Below, piece by piece: positions 45,109 to 56,155 of a stretch of 64,000 bases of DNA (position 1 is the stretch's first letter; each line of letters begins with the position of its first letter). The notes under the pieces are model-generated. The model did no database searches, had not been told where the DNA came from, and was given only the letters and a program-made list of their open reading frames with translations. Position numbers and translations under genes: made by a program. Origin of the DNA: Deltaproteobacteria bacterium (GTDB lineage Bacteria > Desulfobacterota > Binatia > HRBIN30 > CADEER01); the NCBI GenBank assembly GCA_029262455.1, contig JAJCZJ010000088.1, positions 1 to 64,000 on the forward strand. Direction: 5' to 3'.

Positions 45109-46518
45109 TCAGTTCTGGCCCTCCTGCTCTCTGTACTCGTTGAGCCGGTTATACAGCGTCTTCAGGCTGAATCCGAGACTGTCGGCTGCCTTGTGCTTGT
45201 TGCCCTCGAAATGATCGAGAGTGGCCATGACGAGACGTTTCTCGGCTTCCTTCGCCGCCATTCCAACAGGAATGTGCAAAATGTCGCCTTGATGATCCAG
45301 CCCATCGCTCGGCGGCTTCTCAGTCGAAACGTGAAGTGGTGGAGCCACTCGACCCGAAGCCGATCGGATCTTCTCCGGAAAATGCTCTGGCAACAGTTCC
45401 CGATCCGCCAGGATATGAGCTCGCTGCGTGGCATTGGCCAGCTCGCGAACGTTGCCCGGCCATCCGTACGACATGATCGCCGCCTCAGCCACTTTCGCAA
45501 TCCGAGTCGTCTTGCCCTCCAACTTGTTGAACTTTTCTAGAAAGTGCATTGCGAGCAATAGCTTATCATTGCCACGCTCGCGCAATGGCGGGATCTCGAT
45601 CGGAAACACATTGAGACGGTAGAGAAGGTCCTCTCGGAAGGTGCCATTCTTGACGCACTGTTCGGGATCGCGGTTGGTCGCGGCAACGATTCGCACGTCG
45701 ACATCGATCGGTACTTCGCCGCCGGTGCGCATGATCTGACCAGTTTCGAGCACGCGCAACAGCTTCACCTGCAATTCCAGAGGCATTTCGGTCACTTCGT
45801 CGAGAAACAGAGTGCCGCCAGAGGCTCGTTCGAAATAGCCGCGATGCATGCGCTCAGCGCCCGTGAAGCTGCCCTTTTCATGGCCGAAGAGCTGAGATTC
45901 GATCAAGTTCGGCGACACCGCTCCGCAGTTGATTGGCTCATACGGGCCCTTACTCTGCTTCCCCTGCTCGTGCAGGGTTCGAGCGACCACGTCCTTGCCC
46001 GTGCCGCTTTCTCCGGTGATGAAAACCGTCGCCGAGGTCGGAGCGACGCGGTCGATCATGTCGTACAGCTGGTTCATCACTGGCGACGATCCGACCAGTC
46101 GGCCAAAGTGCCCCAGCCGACGCAGCTCGCCGCGCAGGTCGACTACCTGATCTTTGAGATCACGTGTCCTAACGGCATTGACCAAAACCGAACGCAGACG
46201 GGCAAGATCGAGTGGCTTGGTGAGATAGTCAGAGACGCCGCGTCGGAGAGCTTTGACAGCCGTATCGAGAGTGGCGTTTCCCGTCACCAGGATCACCGTC
46301 GGGTCGTATGGCGGCTCGATCGAGTCTAGGATCTCGAGCCCGTCACCATCCGGCAACATCAAGTCGGTGATGATGACATCCGGTTGCTCGCGGAGAAGTG
46401 CCTCGACGGCTTCAGCGAGGGTGCCCGCTCGCAGGGTCTCTAAACCCTCCCTACAGACCAACTGGTCCAGGGCGTCGAGAGCATCGGGATCGTCTTCGAC
46501 GAGGAGTGCGCTGGTCAT
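45109..46518 (-). CDS. NtrC-family sigma-54-dependent response regulator
   Basis: About 469 residues. The receiver domain (about 1-115) has VEDDPDALDAL and DVIITDLMLPDGDGLEI with the phospho-acceptor Asp. The AAA+ domain (about 145-380) has GESGTGKDVVAR, GHEKGSFTGAERMHRGYFERASGGTLFLDE and the sigma-54 contact loop GSFTGA, in place of the usual GAFTGA. The Fis-type HTH at the end is DHFEGNKHKAADSLGFSLKTLYNRLNEY. It lies 113 bases upstream of the cobalamin-sensor/kinase pair, with the likely target promoter in the divergent region. The ATG at 46518 (MTSALLVEDD) is chosen; the frame reaches 46581. Confidence 0.94.
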   Translation of the reverse strand: MTSALLVEDDPDALDALDQLVCREGLETLRAGTLAEAVEALLREQPDVIITDLMLPDGDGLEILDSIEPPYDPTVILVTGNATLDTAVKALRRGVSDYLTKPLDLARLRSVLVNAVRTRDLKDQVVDLRGELRRLGHFGRLVGSSPVMNQLYDMIDRVAPTSATVFITGESGTGKDVVARTLHEQGKQSKGPYEPINCGAVSPNLIESQLFGHEKGSFTGAERMHRGYFERASGGTLFLDEVTEMPLELQVKLLRVLETGQIMRTGGEVPIDVDVRIVAATNRDPEQCVKNGTFREDLLYRLNVFPIEIPPLRERGNDKLLLAMHFLEKFNKLEGKTTRIAKVAEAAIMSYGWPGNVRELANATQRAHILADRELLPEHFPEKIRSASGRVAPPLHVSTEKPPSDGLDHQGDILHIPVGMAAKEAEKRLVMATLDHFEGNKHKAADSLGFSLKTLYNRLNEYREQEGQN

Positions 46519-46916
46519 GCGCGCCCAAGGTAGCGAAGCATCCTCTGGCTGACTAGTGGGTGGGAGGACGGAGGGACTCATTCAGAGCAATGAGCCTCAG
46601 AGTGCCGCCGAACTTTGCGCGGCTAGCCAGTCCACAGTCTCCCTTGCGCAGCCCGACCGCAATAGACTCTGATTGTAGTAGTTGCAAACGAGAAACGCAG
46701 GCGTCGCAGGGACTTCCCCGTTTGAAGGTCTTGCAAGCCTCCTCTGCAACCACGGCCCTCAAGCTAGGGTCCCCACCGAAATGGCACGAACCTAGCAAGG
46801 CTATACCTCCACATGCAGATCGACAGAATACGGCTGGGAGGGAAAAGTTCGCTCGAAGTCCTCAGCAAGAGCGCCGAGATCCGAGGATCGACGAAGTTTG
46901 TTACCGAGCGGAAAAA
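46519..46916. other. 398-base divergent control region
   Basis: Lies between the NtrC-type regulator and the two-ATPase kinase. It contains the sigma-54 match at 46782-46797. No other structure was found. The start of the kinase gene could lie earlier, but the frame upstream of 46917 shows no conserved domain. Confidence 0.5.
46782..46797 (+). promoter_or_regulatory. Sigma-54 (-24/-12) promoter match
   Basis: TGGCACG-AACC-TAGCA fits the sigma-54 consensus TGGCACG-N4-TTGCA with one mismatch, and the GG and GC are the required 10 bases apart. It points toward the kinase at 46917. The NtrC-type activator encoded on the other strand is the natural activator. I did not locate its upstream binding sites. 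Confidence 0.65.
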
Positions 46917-48239
46917 ATGTCCGCCTGTAGGAGCGGCCGGATGATGGTCGCGAGATCGGTTGGGAACAGCATCCAGATGCGTCGGCCGCTGGCAACAGCG
47001 AACGTCCGGTTCGAGCTAGACAATGTCAAGGTACGCCAGCAGGCGGTCGCTGTTGCAGCCGCCATGGGCTTCGACCAACGCGACCAGGAGCGAATCGCGG
47101 CAGCCGTCTCAGAAATTACCAGGAATGCCTTCGATTACGGGCGTTCGGCGCGCGTTGAGTTCGCCCTCGACCTGCAGCCGTACATCGCGCTGCGCATCAC
47201 CCTGCGCGACGAGGGGCCGGGGATCGAGAATCTTGAGGCTATCCTTAGCGGCTCGTTTAGATCGAGACGCCGCATCGGAGTGGGTATTCGCGGGGCCCGG
47301 GCCTTGATGGACGATTTCTCAGTCCAGACACAGGTCGGCTGCGGGACCACCGTGACGATGAGCAAGCGACTGCTTGCGCCAGTGTCGGCTTCGGCGGAGT
47401 CAATCACTCGCAAAGTCGGCGCAGCTCTCGCGGATCTAGAACTCGAAGATCCCCTCGACGATCCCTTCGATCAACGGAGTCCTCGAATCGATGACCCCAC
47501 GGGCCTTCCCGCTCGCCTACCGTCGCTTGCCGAAAAGAACGTAGCGCTCGACGAGGAGACAGGGCGGTCGGCTGAAACGCGCGAGCGGATCATGGCGGCG
47601 CTCTCGCACGACATGAAGAGCCCGCTCTGCGCGATCGGTCTAGCAGCATCGTTGATCGGCGAGACCGCGGAATCTGAACAGCAGAGGAAGAACTCCGCTA
47701 CGATCCAACGCGCCACAAATCGCCTTGAGCGCATGATCCAAGATCTCTCGGACTTCGCGGAACTCCAGGCCGGCAAGCTGCAGCTCGAGATGGGCTCAAT
47801 CGAAATCGGGAGACTCCTCGTCGAAGTCGCGACCCTGCATCAGGCGGCGGCGGAAAACCTCGACATCAGCTTCGAGATCGAGAGACCTGAGGCGGAGCTA
47901 CTCGTTCTCGCCGACCGCGAGCGCATCCTGCAAGTCCTGAACCACCTAGTGAGAAACTCGCTCAAAATCTGCCCCGCAGGCTCTACCATACACCTCGAAG
48001 TAACAGCGCGTGCCAGCGAGGCTATTGTGACTGTGCGCGACGACGGACCGGGGATTCCCGCGAACGTACGTGCCAACCTCTTCCGGCCGTACCGCTCAGC
48101 CGAACAAGACCGTCGGGGCGGTACCGGGCTCGGCCTTCCCATCGCACAAGAGCTGGTCCAGGCACACGGTGGGCGGATATGGGCAGACTCCCACCAACCA
48201 GGCGGGGCCGTGATACGATTCTCCCTTCAACGCGCGTGA
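46917..48239 (+). CDS. Hybrid kinase with RsbT/RsbW-like ATPase domain plus histidine kinase
   Basis: About 440 residues. The N-terminal ATPase domain (about 15-155) has the RsbT/RsbW-like motifs AAAVSEITRNAFDYG, LRDEGPGI and GVGIRGARALMDDF. A linker leads to a full histidine kinase: H-box ALSHDMKSPLCAIGLAASLI (His near 225), N box LNHLVRNSLKICP, DDGPGIP and GGTGLGLPIAQELVQAHGG. No receiver or membrane segment exists. Two ATPase domains in one chain link a partner-switch anti-sigma kinase to two-component signalling. The ATG at 46917 is used; ATGs at 46941 and 46944 are also possible. It is probably driven by the sigma-54 match at 46782. Confidence 0.88.
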   Translation: MSACRSGRMMVARSVGNSIQMRRPLATANVRFELDNVKVRQQAVAVAAAMGFDQRDQERIAAAVSEITRNAFDYGRSARVEFALDLQPYIALRITLRDEGPGIENLEAILSGSFRSRRRIGVGIRGARALMDDFSVQTQVGCGTTVTMSKRLLAPVSASAESITRKVGAALADLELEDPLDDPFDQRSPRIDDPTGLPARLPSLAEKNVALDEETGRSAETRERIMAALSHDMKSPLCAIGLAASLIGETAESEQQRKNSATIQRATNRLERMIQDLSDFAELQAGKLQLEMGSIEIGRLLVEVATLHQAAAENLDISFEIERPEAELLVLADRERILQVLNHLVRNSLKICPAGSTIHLEVTARASEAIVTVRDDGPGIPANVRANLFRPYRSAEQDRRGGTGLGLPIAQELVQAHGGRIWADSHQPGGAVIRFSLQRA

Positions 48240-51767: not shown

Positions 51768-53060
51768 CTAGTCGGGAAAGCAGCCGTATATCGGACCCGG
51801 AAGCTGAAAGTGATCGTCCGGGAAGCTGGATTCGATCACACTGGTCGTAGGACGTCCGCTGATTGCCGCACGATTCGCGACGTCATTGACCCCAAGCACG
51901 AAGCCCAAGCCCGTCGCTGCCACAGAGCCGTCTTCGCTTCGGGCCCAGTAGTGATTGAACATCGCATTGTAAAAATACTCTCCGGCGCGGTCGTAAACCA
52001 ATTTCCAGTAGATTCGATACATCTCCCTGTCGATGTACAAAACGACTTTGCCGAACTCATGATGGGGATCGAGGCTCCTTCCTTCGACAATCCAGACCGG
52101 TCGCCGCACCATCCGCACATTCTCGACCACCTGCCACGGCACACCGCTCGCACCGGGCGTCTCGTAAGCTCCCGGGAGTTTCGGAAGATCAATCTCATAA
52201 CGCGTATCCGTCAGCCGTTTCATGGTCAGCAGCGTCGGCGTGACCACTGAGGCAAGCACCTCTTCAGCGCCGACCAGTCGCCAACTGAAGTACTCGATCT
52301 TGCTATCAAACCCGCCGAAATCTTCGGGATAGAAAGGGAGTTCCGCGATCGGGGTGGAGCGCGAAGACGGTTCCTCCCGCCGAATGCGACGAGTGGAGGT
52401 GACAAAGATCCATCTCTTGTCCGGCGAAGCATCGTTGAAGCGTTTCTCGAGGCCACTCGCGCCGTCGACGTCCGGAGGTTCGAGGAGTCTCGTCATCGAT
52501 GCCCGCCGCAGGATCTCTGTAGCGTCCGATCTATTGTGCACCAGGTGCGACAGGAATTCGCCCTCTTCCCGAGAAAGCTTGAGGCGTTTGTGCTCGCCGT
52601 CGATGTCGATCCCGTTGATCGTGAAAGTACTGCCTCGTCCGCCACCTAGAACATCAGCGGCGCGCACGTTCCACATGATGCTGCAGGCCGCGTCGGCAGC
52701 GTCCGCCGACACCGACGGAAACGGGAAGCCGTCGAGGCTCGCCGGCATCGCATCAGCCGCGTCACGCAATCCACACGTCTTCGGGTCGATCCGATAGATG
52801 CCTTGATTGCTGCGGCTCTTCGCCCAAAACGCTTCGGGATAAAGAGCGCGAAACTTCTCGCCCGCCACATCCGCAACACGATACGAGTAGTCGCCCGCCT
52901 TGAGCCGACGCAGGACCGGCTCCGGCAATAGGCCTTCGGCTTTCTGCCAGTTACTCGAATCGAGTGTCCATTCGGGTACGACCTGCGCTGCTCCGGGGCT
53001 CGCGCAGAAAGACAAGATCGCAATCCCACAAGTCAGCGCAGCGTGCCCGATCGTTGTCAC
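51768..53060 (-). CDS. DUF1329 family periplasmic protein
   Basis: A 430-residue DUF1329 (LolA/LolB-like beta-barrel) protein, common in hydrocarbon-degrading bacteria and thought to bind hydrophobic ligands. A signal peptide ends near SFCASPGAAQ. Family segments are AFWAKSRSNQGIYRIDPKTCGL, FDSKIEYFSWRLVGAEEVLA, PVWIVEGRSLDPHHEFGKVVLYIDREMYRIYWKLVYDRAGEYFYNAM and GVNDVANRAAI. It follows the fused paralogue at 53074 by 13 bases, and the two share the same blocks throughout. Confidence 0.88.
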   Translation of the reverse strand: MTTIGHAALTCGIAILSFCASPGAAQVVPEWTLDSSNWQKAEGLLPEPVLRRLKAGDYSYRVADVAGEKFRALYPEAFWAKSRSNQGIYRIDPKTCGLRDAADAMPASLDGFPFPSVSADAADAACSIMWNVRAADVLGGGRGSTFTINGIDIDGEHKRLKLSREEGEFLSHLVHNRSDATEILRRASMTRLLEPPDVDGASGLEKRFNDASPDKRWIFVTSTRRIRREEPSSRSTPIAELPFYPEDFGGFDSKIEYFSWRLVGAEEVLASVVTPTLLTMKRLTDTRYEIDLPKLPGAYETPGASGVPWQVVENVRMVRRPVWIVEGRSLDPHHEFGKVVLYIDREMYRIYWKLVYDRAGEYFYNAMFNHYWARSEDGSVAATGLGFVLGVNDVANRAAISGRPTTSVIESSFPDDHFQLPGPIYGCFPD

Positions 53061-53073
53061 TAAGTGGAAGATC

Positions 53074-54774
53074 TCAGTCGCTCATTCGGGTCAGTGTGGT
53101 CAGCGTAAAGAGATTCGGCGGTGTGTTGGCGCCGACAACACTCGTCATCTGGCGGCCGACGATGGCGGCGCGATTGGTTCTGTCATTGACGCCGACGAGA
53201 AAGCCCGGTGTGACGGCTGCCATCGAACCGTCCTCGCTGCGTGACCAGTAGTAGCTGAACATCGCGTTGTAGAAGTACTCACCGGCACGGTCGTAGACCA
53301 ACTTCCAGTAGATCCTGTACATCTCCTTGTCGATGTAGAGTACGACTTTGCCGAAGTTGTGGTACGGGTCCTCCGAACGCCCTTCGACGATCCACACAGG
53401 TCGTCGCACCATGTTCGCCCCCTCGACGACCAACCAAGGGATACCACGACTGCCGGGCACCTCGTACGCCGCGCGTACCTGCGGCGGCGAGACCTCGAAC
53501 CTCGAGTCTCCGACCCGCGACAGCGGTAGCGGAGACGTCGACGTCATTGACGCCAGTGTCTCCCCTTCTCCAATGAATCGCCATTTGAAGTACTCGAGCT
53601 TGCTGCCAAAACCACCGAGGTCTTCGTGATAGACCGCCAGGTCCGCGATCGGCTCGGACCGCGCCGCTGGATTGACCCGCCGCACCCGACGTGTCGCCGG
53701 CACGAAGAACCAAATCTTGTCGTAGGTCGTCGCATCGTTGGTCCGGCGAGCAACACCGCCGACGCTATCGAGATCGAGGGGCTCCAGAACATTCTGCATC
53801 AGCGCGTGGCGTAGGTTGTCCGGGTTCTCCCGGCGCCCTGCCAAAAAGTGCGACTCGTACGACGCGATCTTGACCCGCTTCATTTCGCCCGAAGTATCGA
53901 TACCGTTGATCGAGTACTTACTTTCCTGCCCCCCGCCCAACGCGTCGGCCGCGCGCATGTTCCACAGAATCTTGCAGGCCGCATCACCGACAGAGTCGTC
54001 GATCGAGTCAAAAGGCAGCCCGACCAACTGACCAGCAGCGGCGCCGGTCGCGGAATCGATCAACCCACACGTCTCCGGGTCGACCTCATAGCGGTCGCGA
54101 TTGGCGCGGCTATCAATCCAGAACGACTGCGGATAGTTCGCCCGAAACACAGCCGGACGCACTTGCCGAACCTGAAACCAATAGTCCCCCGACTGTACGC
54201 GCCGCAAAACCGGCTCCGGCAACAATCCCTGGGCGTGATGCCAGCTGTTTGAATCGAGCAGCCATGGTTTGTTTCGTGGCACGGCGGCGACGACCCGCAT
54301 CGGGTCGTCGCGCGTAGCCGGTGCGAGATCAACCTCCGACTCCACCGCACCGGCACCATTCTTCTGGCGCGCAGCGACGACCTCCGCCGGCTGCTCGTCT
54401 CGCAGCGGCACTGCGGTCGGTACGCTCGCAACCGATGGCGCCGAATTCCTTTGCGATCGATAATCGTCTGCGTAGCGAGTCACCATGAGCACCCCGGCTG
54501 CCAACGCCGCCGCCAGCCACACCCCAGTCTTGAGGAGCCGCTGACCCGAGGGAGCCGTTTCTGTTGCCGGCGCTTCGGGGACGAGTTCTCCGCTGAGGTG
54601 CACCTGCGCCAAGCGCGCACTCCGTTCGGACACCGACGCCGGATCCAAGCCGACTTCGCGCAACGCTTCTTGCTCGCCGAGTCCATCTTTTGGCGCAATT
54701 TGGTCAAAGAGATCGGCCAGGGCCTCGACCACACGCCGATCGTCGCGCGGTGATTCACCGCTGCGCTCAGCCAT
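53074..54774 (-). CDS. Fusion: anti-sigma-like N-terminus, membrane helix and DUF1329
   Basis: A 566-residue protein. The first 80 residues (VVEALADLFDQIAPKDGLGE ...) are acidic, helical and cytoplasmic. A single membrane helix (LKTGVWLAAALAAGVLMVTRY, about 82-103) and a 60-residue linker follow. Residues about 170-566 form a DUF1329 domain nearly parallel to the neighbour. The layout suggests an anti-sigma factor whose extracytoplasmic sensor is a DUF1329 lipid-binding domain. Its start overlaps the sigma factor stop by 8 bases. I know of no described protein with this fusion. Confidence 0.75.
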   Translation of the reverse strand: MAERSGESPRDDRRVVEALADLFDQIAPKDGLGEQEALREVGLDPASVSERSARLAQVHLSGELVPEAPATETAPSGQRLLKTGVWLAAALAAGVLMVTRYADDYRSQRNSAPSVASVPTAVPLRDEQPAEVVAARQKNGAGAVESEVDLAPATRDDPMRVVAAVPRNKPWLLDSNSWHHAQGLLPEPVLRRVQSGDYWFQVRQVRPAVFRANYPQSFWIDSRANRDRYEVDPETCGLIDSATGAAAGQLVGLPFDSIDDSVGDAACKILWNMRAADALGGGQESKYSINGIDTSGEMKRVKIASYESHFLAGRRENPDNLRHALMQNVLEPLDLDSVGGVARRTNDATTYDKIWFFVPATRRVRRVNPAARSEPIADLAVYHEDLGGFGSKLEYFKWRFIGEGETLASMTSTSPLPLSRVGDSRFEVSPPQVRAAYEVPGSRGIPWLVVEGANMVRRPVWIVEGRSEDPYHNFGKVVLYIDKEMYRIYWKLVYDRAGEYFYNAMFSYYWSRSEDGSMAAVTPGFLVGVNDRTNRAAIVGRQMTSVVGANTPPNLFTLTTLTRMSD

Positions 54775-55354
54775 GGGTTACCTCCACTCCTTTTGCCGCC
54801 TCGAGTTCCGCGACGACGCGCAGGGCGCAGCGCCGGAGTCGTTTCAGGCGATTGTTGATGTCGGTGACGGAGGTCCCGAGGGTTTCTGCCAGGGCGCGCG
54901 GTGTCGGTTCACAATGCAACGTCACCGCATCGATGACTTCGAGCAACGGGCGTTGGCCCTCGGCACGGAGCAGCGAACGCAAGGCGTCCAGCTTTTCAGA
55001 ATCACAATCGTCCGCGGCAGGCGGCGCCGCGGGGTCCGGCTGCTGATCGAGATCGGCATACAGTCGGTTGTCATGCGATGTCGCCAAGTGGCTGGCCAAG
55101 CTGTCCACCACTCCGCGCAGGTAGGGCAGCAACTCGCCTCTGGCGGGATCCCATCGGCGTTCGCCCGACAACACCTTCTCGATCGCTTCCGCGGCCAGAT
55201 CCTCGGCGCTCTTGCCGGCCGCCAGCACACCTAGACTGCTTCGACGCCAACGCAAGTTAGACGAACGCCAAGCCGAATAAGCGGTCAGGCGCATCCCGAC
55301 ATCTCTCCAGTCGATCCGGAGCAACGCGTGCCGAGTTGTCGAGCTAATGGTCAA
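54767..55354 (-). CDS. ECF-like RNA polymerase sigma factor
   Basis: A 195-residue protein. AEDLAAEAIEKVLSGERRWDPARGELLPYLRGVVDSLASHLATS is region 2-like. A region 4-like HTH lies near residues 140-190 (PRALAETLGTSVTDINNRLKRLRRCALRVVAEL). It is divergent from typical ECF sequences, so assignment is moderate. The gene overlaps the anti-sigma/DUF1329 fusion by 8 bases, the usual sigma/anti-sigma arrangement. Confidence 0.65.
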   Translation of the reverse strand: MTISSTTRHALLRIDWRDVGMRLTAYSAWRSSNLRWRRSSLGVLAAGKSAEDLAAEAIEKVLSGERRWDPARGELLPYLRGVVDSLASHLATSHDNRLYADLDQQPDPAAPPAADDCDSEKLDALRSLLRAEGQRPLLEVIDAVTLHCEPTPRALAETLGTSVTDINNRLKRLRRCALRVVAELEAAKGVEVTHG

Positions 55355-55527
55355 CGATCCCCTCCATCGAACCTTCTCACCTTTCCCATGCCCTAGGCAG
55401 AAGAAAATTCGCCACGCAGAGGGAAAAACAATCCGCCGAGCAAGGAATTCCGATGGTCACCAGGCATCTTCCCGGCGTCATAACGGTTCAGCTTGCGCTG
55501 CCGCCAATGTGCATGCATGCTCTGTGT

Positions 55528-55770
55528 ATGGCGACGAAAACAATCTCAGTTGATCTCGAAGCGTATGAGATTCTCCGCCGCGCCCGGCAGACGGCGAAAG
55601 AGTCGTTCTCCCAAGTGATCAAGCGCGGTCGATGGAAACGGTCCCCGAAGACCTGCGGCGATATTCTTGCGTCCTCTGCCGAAATTCCGGCCGCTCCGGC
55701 GAGCGTTCTGAAAAAACTGGAGGTGGCACAATCTAGCGACGCGCCGCCCGACTCAGCATGGGATGAGTGA
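55528..55770 (+). CDS. VapB-like antitoxin
   Basis: An 80-residue protein. ATKTISVDLEAYEILRRARQTAKESFSQVIKR is an antitoxin DNA-binding segment as in DUF217/VapB proteins, and the acidic C-terminus (SSDAPPDSAWDE) fits toxin contact. The ATG at 55528 is used; the frame extends upstream to 55453 without support. It overlaps the PIN toxin gene by 8 bases. Confidence 0.82.
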   Translation: MATKTISVDLEAYEILRRARQTAKESFSQVIKRGRWKRSPKTCGDILASSAEIPAAPASVLKKLEVAQSSDAPPDSAWDE

Positions 55771-56155
55771 TCTCCTCTTCGACACCTGCTTTCTGATCGA
55801 CTTCGAGCGCGAGCTCAAACGCCAATCCGGTGCCGCGCACGATTTTCTAGCCGACAATCACAATGCGGTCCCGTGGATATCGTGGGTCGTAGCCGGCGAA
55901 TTCGCAGAAGGTTTCGGCGATATCGATGACCCCGCTTGTGCGGCACTCCTCGCGCGCTTCGAAGTCGTCGAAGCAACGAAGAACACAGCTAGCCACTACG
56001 CGCGAATCACTTCTCGCCTACGCAGCAAGCGTCAGCTAATCGGAGCAAACGACCTGTGGATCGCGGCAGCAGCCCTGGCCCAGGACTTTCCGCTGGTATC
56101 GAGGAACACCTCACACTTCACCAGAGTCCCGGGCCTCAAGGTGATCACTTATTGA
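55763..56155 (+). CDS. PIN-domain toxin (VapC-like RNase)
   Basis: A 130-residue PIN-domain endoribonuclease. Acidic active-site residues are D7 (LLFDTCFLIDF), E46 (VAGEFAEG) and D97 (GANDLWIAAAAL), with N and S near the fourth site (VSRNTSHF). It would cut tRNA or rRNA when freed from the antitoxin at 55528. The stop lies 5 bases from the convergent SDR gene. Confidence 0.88.
   Translation: MSDLLFDTCFLIDFERELKRQSGAAHDFLADNHNAVPWISWVVAGEFAEGFGDIDDPACAALLARFEVVEATKNTASHYARITSRLRSKRQLIGANDLWIAAAALAQDFPLVSRNTSHFTRVPGLKVITY

Follow-up and report, generated by a model that had tools for sequence, protein, structure and literature searches.

The window analysed here, 64,000 nucleotides of contig JAJCZJ010000088.1 from the 7.34-Mb genome of a Deltaproteobacteria bacterium, contains three minus-strand genes that, in the ORF list of the window, run from 55354 to 51768 and encode, in this order, a sigma-like protein, a 566-aa fusion protein and a free DUF1329 protein. 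The features of this operon are as follows:

55359-55365, minus: Shine-Dalgarno-like GGAGGGG ahead of the sigma gene
54767-55354, minus: ECF-like sigma factor, 195 aa, TTG start (Sigma70_r2 below cut-off, HMM of seven sigmas, Foldseek list)
54767-54774, minus: 8-base overlap of the sigma stop and the fusion-gene start
53074-54774, minus: 566-aa fusion, ATG start; sigma-partner segment, transmembrane helix, linker and DUF1329
54604-54750, minus: sigma-partner segment, residues 9-57, predicted to be cytoplasmic (Smith-Waterman, eight-partner HMM)
54481-54537, minus: single predicted transmembrane helix, residues 80-98 (Kyte-Doolittle mean 1.91 over 19 residues)
54265-54480, minus: Ala/Val/Pro-rich linker, residues 99-170 (composition)
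53227-54162, minus: DUF1329 (PF07044) domain, residues 205-516, predicted to be periplasmic (75.4 bits, cut-off 23.1)
51768-53060, minus: free DUF1329 protein, 430 aa, GTG start (Pfam, 83.8 bits)

Both the overlap of the fusion-gene start with the sigma gene and the second DUF1329 protein next in the operon had been claimed in an earlier note on this DNA and were confirmed. The fusion gene and the free DUF1329 gene are 13 bp apart, and GGAGG-type sites precede the sigma and fusion-gene starts. The GC3 of the fusion gene is 0.66 for residues 1-110 compared with 0.74 for the whole gene, which gives no clear sign of a frame artefact. The region upstream of the sigma gene contains no match to an ECF-promoter pattern. 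Divergent from the operon, at 55453-56155, are a small ORF and a PIN-domain gene (PIN, 39.5 bits), possibly a toxin-antitoxin pair. Elsewhere in the window, a histidine kinase ORF (46560-48239) carries an extra N-terminal HATPase_c_2 domain, which we take to be RsbW-like, and is divergent from the gene for a sigma-54-activator response regulator (45109-46581).

DUF1329 in the fusion and in related genomes

The earlier note had described the 566-aa protein as a cytoplasmic helical segment connected through one membrane helix to a periplasmic DUF1329 domain. The helix and the domain are borne out: an N-terminal segment of about 60 residues precedes one strong hydrophobic helix, and DUF1329 scores well above the Pfam cut-off, as it does in the 430-aa protein; the helicity of the N-terminal segment and its cytoplasmic location are predictions. 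In both proteins, the Pfam family LolA_like is also just above its cut-off. The fused and free DUF1329 sequences are 55.9% identical over 392 aligned positions and are sisters with a support of 1.000 in a tree of 34 sequences, which was built from the fetched loci, a subset of the matches, with aligned pieces shorter than 300 positions left out. The free protein starts with a hydrophobic, signal-like segment, and the helix at residues 80-98 of the fusion could be the former signal peptide of its DUF1329 part, in which case the join may be a simple read-through. The approximately 70 linker residues that follow the helix have no counterpart in the free protein.

DUF1329 relatives are present in all 20 genomes searched, which were chosen from 57 relatives, and none of the DUF1329 alignments listed for these genomes reaches residues 1-66 of the fusion. 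The N-termini of the 32 tree relatives look, by eye, like signal peptides, with only the last 19 residues visible in one case. The one alignment that extends to residue 67 (G006:C14) comes from a DUF1329 protein of the secreted type that has an Ala/Pro-rich linker and is not a fusion; others (G007:C7, G006:C27 twice, G009:C144) start at residues 107-117, within the linker, and none of them reaches the helix or the partner segment. One of these genomes (G006) also encodes two tandem DUF1329-type proteins whose signal peptides are followed by very long Ala/Pro-rich linkers (L041, 1153-5403). The operon is absent from the only syntenic locus found (L075, in G003 of the same genus), where the two genes found on the 51755 side of the operon have counterparts and the next gene is an unrelated one that appears, by eye, to be amidohydrolase-like.

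Thus, the DUF1329 fusion is unique so far. The earlier note had proposed a search for the same fusion in other genomes and had named its absence from relatives as an observation that would count against the idea; none was seen in the 20 related genomes, so formally that is the outcome. This result is qualified by the fact that the 57 relatives contain no close match to the sigma factor either, so the whole module is rare.

The sigma factor and its homologs

By the usual definition of an ECF sigma factor, with region 2 and region 4 both above the curated cut-offs, the 195-aa protein does not qualify: the Sigma70_r2 match (22.2 bits, cut-off 24; E = 1.3e-4) falls short, no Pfam region-4 family is matched, and TIGR02937 gives 18.3 bits against a cut-off of 42.9. 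The AlphaFold2 model, built from only three sequences, is of low confidence (mean pLDDT 59.9), with a confident C-terminal helical part (residues 121-190, block pLDDT 71-89) and a region 2 that is not confident. Sigma-factor chains head the Foldseek list for this model, with the best E-value at 0.012 and none at or below 0.001; five of the top seven are labelled as sigma H or sigma L complexes and the other two are chain F of Mycobacterium tuberculosis initiation complexes. Against an HMM of seven homologous sigmas from which it was excluded, the window protein scores 125 bits, and it groups with the sigma of locus L050 (support 0.952).

As a lone query, the window sigma gave, besides itself, weak matches in two of the 57 relatives and, at E = 1e-6, nothing further among 395 phylum genomes (best 8 candidates per genome); the two weak matches, G003:C543 and G041:C127, look like ordinary ECF sigmas and were rejected. 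Stepwise sigma profiles detected homologs in at least 4 of 145 class genomes (best ~20 candidates per genome), at least 2 of 395 phylum genomes (best 7 candidates per genome), at least 3 of 85 genomes in the class of G320 and, at E = 1e-4, at least 9 of 148 class genomes (best ~20 candidates per genome), all of these being lower bounds that include the genomes that supplied query rows. A contig pattern scan yielded two sigma loci from 178 pattern stretches, L063 and the new L064, and searches of plasmids, in which the window sigma and three more sigmas served as queries, yielded a single record, from Pontibacter (L067). Five weak sigma matches with E-values from 3e-7 to 9e-5 (G000:C63, G041, G054, G495, G002) were dropped; a partner was sought beside four of these, with one frame at the G002 locus reaching E = 0.046 and nothing at the other three, and the fifth, G041, was judged by look only.

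At least ten loci outside the window were retained: L050 and L086 (both in G463), L063 (G487), L058 (G451), L064, L067 (Pontibacter), L066 (G320), L071 (G575), L072 (G557) and L081 (G445). The gene directly downstream of the sigma gene encodes a partner or partner-like protein at every one of these loci, and, with the starts as chosen, the two genes overlap by 4-10 bases in seven loci and are separated by 23, 54 or 79 bases in three. Seven loci encode a soluble partner of 139-152 aa followed by an ImmA/IrrE-type peptidase:

L063, 2910-4880: sigma, ~140-aa partner, CapP-type protease
L072, 3600-5517: same cassette
L067, 2863-4659: same cassette
L058, 1501-3419: same cassette
L071, 3671-5521: same cassette
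L066, 265-2100: same cassette
L064, 152-1960: same cassette, beginning near the contig end

All seven partner-linked peptidases match the PADLOC capP model (166-214 bits), and all five that were tested match Pfam Peptidase_M78. Immune-type genes adjoin five of these seven sigma loci: CBASS cyclases in L063 (314 bits) and L072 (464 bits), the ubiquitin-like genes Multi_ubiq, Prok-E2_E, DUF6527 and E1-E2 in L067, Multi_ubiq in L058, and E1-E2 (41 bits) together with a frame that is DUF6527-like by eye in L071. There is no obvious immune system in the 11 kb of L066. Through CapP-type proteases, the partner family links a sigma factor with immune operons, and the cassettes are a possible further class of immune-operon controller, of which we found no description in the open-access literature (titles and abstract starts, in which the search term 'irre' also matches other words). 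According to a published report, CapP is a protease that is activated by single-stranded DNA and cleaves the repressor CapH (PMC13373217). Cleavage of a paired repressor by this family elsewhere fits the sigma partner being an inhibitor, and, by analogy, the CapP-linked partner would be an inhibitor removed by its own peptidase.

The remaining three loci are organised differently. L050 encodes a short, 85-aa partner alone, which lacks the tail of its CapP-linked counterparts. Inspection by eye showed no peptidase in the 9.5 kb around it, nor was a protease seen by eye near the partners of L081 and L086.

The partner segment and what follows it

The N-terminal segment of the fusion resembles these partners. 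Residues 1-80 align to the 85-aa L050 partner with a Smith-Waterman score of 81, reached by none of 5000 shuffles (maximum 57), and to the L063 partner with the same score, reached by none of 3000 shuffles and by none of 1396 reading-frame tiles (best tile 52). Scored against an eight-partner HMM, the segment reaches 21.5 bits (domain score), compared with 13.1 for the best of 5000 shuffles. The L050 partner was found with the window segment as the query, next to a sigma 48% identical to that of the window, and the L063 partner was found through its sigma. Without the L050 partner, a five-partner HMM scores residues 1-112 at 13.9 bits and the whole protein at 10.1 (best of 2000 shuffles, 9.7), and a seven-partner HMM gives 10.8 bits (best of 3000 shuffles, 10.6). 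For three other CapP-linked partners, 8-30 of 3000 shuffles attain the pair score, and for three more 17-62 of 500 shuffles do. Similarity to these six is marginal, so that homology of the segment is carried by two partners together with gene position. The window thus has a homologous sigma with a partner encoded directly downstream, the partner being the N-terminal segment of the fusion. This resemblance to proteins encoded directly downstream of such sigmas, which elsewhere have a CapP-type protease after them or another domain fused to them, supports in part the signal path suggested in the earlier note, in which DUF1329 would sense lipids and would release the sigma factor; these putative sensing and release steps are considered below.

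The segment matches no Pfam, PHROGs or PADLOC family, and residues 1-80, being free of cysteine, cannot form a zinc motif of the known kind; AlphaFold2 gives an unusable model for the 566-aa protein (mean pLDDT 30). The absence of a confident fold and of family matches would be expected if the segment were unrelated to sigma control, with the fusion simply a DUF1329 protein whose N-terminus is unusually long and whose gene by chance follows a sigma gene. We find this highly improbable because none of the shuffles reach the two best pair scores, because the DUF1329 relatives inspected have signal-peptide-like N-termini instead, and because the best match to the segment alone in 148 class genomes, besides itself, lies beside the 48%-identical sigma in G463. 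That search gave five matches besides itself, of which two were inspected: that in G463 is genuine and that in G495 is no partner; the other three, in G522, G470 and G002, have E-values of 0.005-0.01. An N-terminal match on a viral contig (L048) sits in an apparent YefM-type antitoxin frame and is not a relative.

What the window does not have is the protease. No M78 peptidase match at E <= 0.001 was found in the whole window genome (6 candidates scored), whereas 7 of 14 control genomes were positive, so that the sigma-partner module would need another input. Two of the ten loci, L081 and L086, share with the window a fused extra domain and the lack of a protease nearby. The clearer case is that of G445:

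L081, 2-2016: sigma, partner::ChrR-like cupin fusion, free cupin

In the 265-aa fusion of this locus, the partner segment scores 23.9 bits (best of 3000 shuffles, 12.1) and the cupin is ChrR-like, with 22.7 bits, below the 27-bit cut-off. The fused and free cupins are 80.6% identical over 160 aa. The fusion has no membrane helix (best hydropathy 1.14), its gene is 79 bases from the sigma gene, and its partner segment is weakly similar to that of the window, a score reached by 23 of 1000 shuffles. The gene order is nevertheless the same, namely, sigma, partner::TM::DUF1329 and DUF1329 in the window, and sigma, partner::cupin and cupin in G445. In L086 (205-3144, on contig C214 of G463), a 329-aa partner-like protein, with a marginal partner match (12.5 compared with 11.5 bits), and a glyoxalase-like protein flank the sigma gene, and a 44-aa segment (50% identity, E = 6e-10) is common to the 329-aa protein and the product of the gene upstream of the sigma gene. 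We read these loci and the window as cases in which the protease has been replaced rather than merely lost.

A different view of the missing protease is that an immune regulator, acquired horizontally, lost it and left the sigma and the segment as remnants; the partner would have run in frame into a DUF1329 signal peptide, and the module would no longer signal. The lack of close sigma matches among the 57 relatives, the absence of the operon from the one syntenic locus found in the genus, the missing M78 peptidase, the long branches in the trees and the possible origin of the helix at residues 80-98 from an old signal peptide are all compatible with such decay. However, the three frames are intact, with coding-like GC3 and good ribosome-binding sites on the first two, the linker of about 70 residues has no counterpart in the free DUF1329 protein, and the same gene order recurs with a cupin in G445; we therefore regard decay as unlikely.

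A candidate sensor and its relation to known regulators

The reading that we favour, with a probability of roughly 0.6, is that the 566-aa protein is an anti-sigma-like regulator with one helix, in which a copy of the neighbouring product serves as the sensor, so that release of the sigma factor would be gated by a ligand. The N-terminal ~60 residues would bind the sigma and restrain it at the inner membrane, and the predicted periplasmic DUF1329 domain would detect either the apolar ligand handled by the free DUF1329 protein or the loaded state of a transport machinery. A change in DUF1329 would then free the sigma, by regulated proteolysis or by a conformational change, and the released sigma would transcribe at least its own operon.

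The presumption that DUF1329 binds a hydrophobic ligand, which is outside the Pfam definition, derives from substrate phenotypes. DUF1329 proteins are described as necessary if cells are to grow on monoterpenes (PMC6394551), to grow well on phenanthrene (a result reported in PMC13101534) or to use Tween20 (PMC10866462); no account of what these proteins bind was met in the literature searched. The last of these reports also gives two separate sets of predicted contacts for a Pseudomonas putida DUF1329 protein, one with a DUF1302 barrel in the outer membrane and the other with a periplasmic protein together with a multidrug efflux transporter (PMC10866462). Such contacts would also suit a fusion that constitutively tethers the sigma to the membrane or assists it as a positive co-factor, with DUF1329 only positioning the fusion beside a transport complex, the more so as inhibition by the fusion is deduced from its relatives. 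The CapP-type protease beside the partner in seven of the ten loci fits removal of an inhibitor better, and in G445 a different domain has been exchanged in behind the partner segment; accordingly, we consider a tether or co-factor improbable compared with the ligand-gated regulator.

If that regulator is real, the findings suggest that a member of an uncultured group of bacteria uses a copy of DUF1329 as a sensor to turn genes on, and, with DUF1329 wired to a sigma factor, its ligands could be screened with a reporter. A layout in which sensor and neighbouring product are copies of one family was seen twice and would offer a simple rule for predicting the signal of such a regulator. A broader proposal, which we put forward tentatively and with the odds somewhat against it, is that this sigma/anti-sigma family is a plug-in controller that takes its input from whatever lies behind the partner segment: a soluble tail with a CapP-type peptidase would couple it to CBASS or ubiquitin-like operons, and replacement of the tail by a copy of the operon's product (DUF1329 here, cupin in G445) would make it sense what the operon handles, with DUF1329 as a true signal-input domain for apolar compounds. 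DUF1329 as the input domain of an anti-sigma factor was not met in the literature searched.

Among known systems, the fusion is closest in plan to the class I membrane anti-sigma factors (ASDI), of which RseA is an example alongside RsiW. As defined in PMC7406223, this class has a short N-terminus, one transmembrane helix and an extracytoplasmic domain; the fusion is predicted to have the same architecture and is encoded directly after an ECF-like sigma. The ASDI fold itself has four helices, three of them forming a bundle on sigma4 and the fourth lying on sigma2. Unlike in known members, the N-terminus of the fusion has no Pfam match and no cysteine in residues 1-80. With the CapP-linked cassettes, the window shares the homologous sigma, a similar N-terminal partner segment and overlapping genes, but it has a transmembrane helix and DUF1329 instead of the protease and the ~80-residue partner tail. 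A further parallel is with ChrR, an anti-sigma factor with a cupin domain, and with sensors of the RsgI/BlaR1 type, which resemble the regulated product. As in these cases, the putative sensor domain in the window is similar to a protein from its own operon or regulon; unlike in these, it is DUF1329 rather than a cupin, a carbohydrate-binding module or a beta-lactamase domain, and the sigma-side segment is different. Finally, the window protein shares the DUF1329 family and a periplasmic location, here predicted, with AmeB, PP_0766 and other DUF1329 proteins associated with apolar substrates, but those are described as separate proteins, whereas in the window one copy is fused with a membrane helix and the sigma-partner segment.
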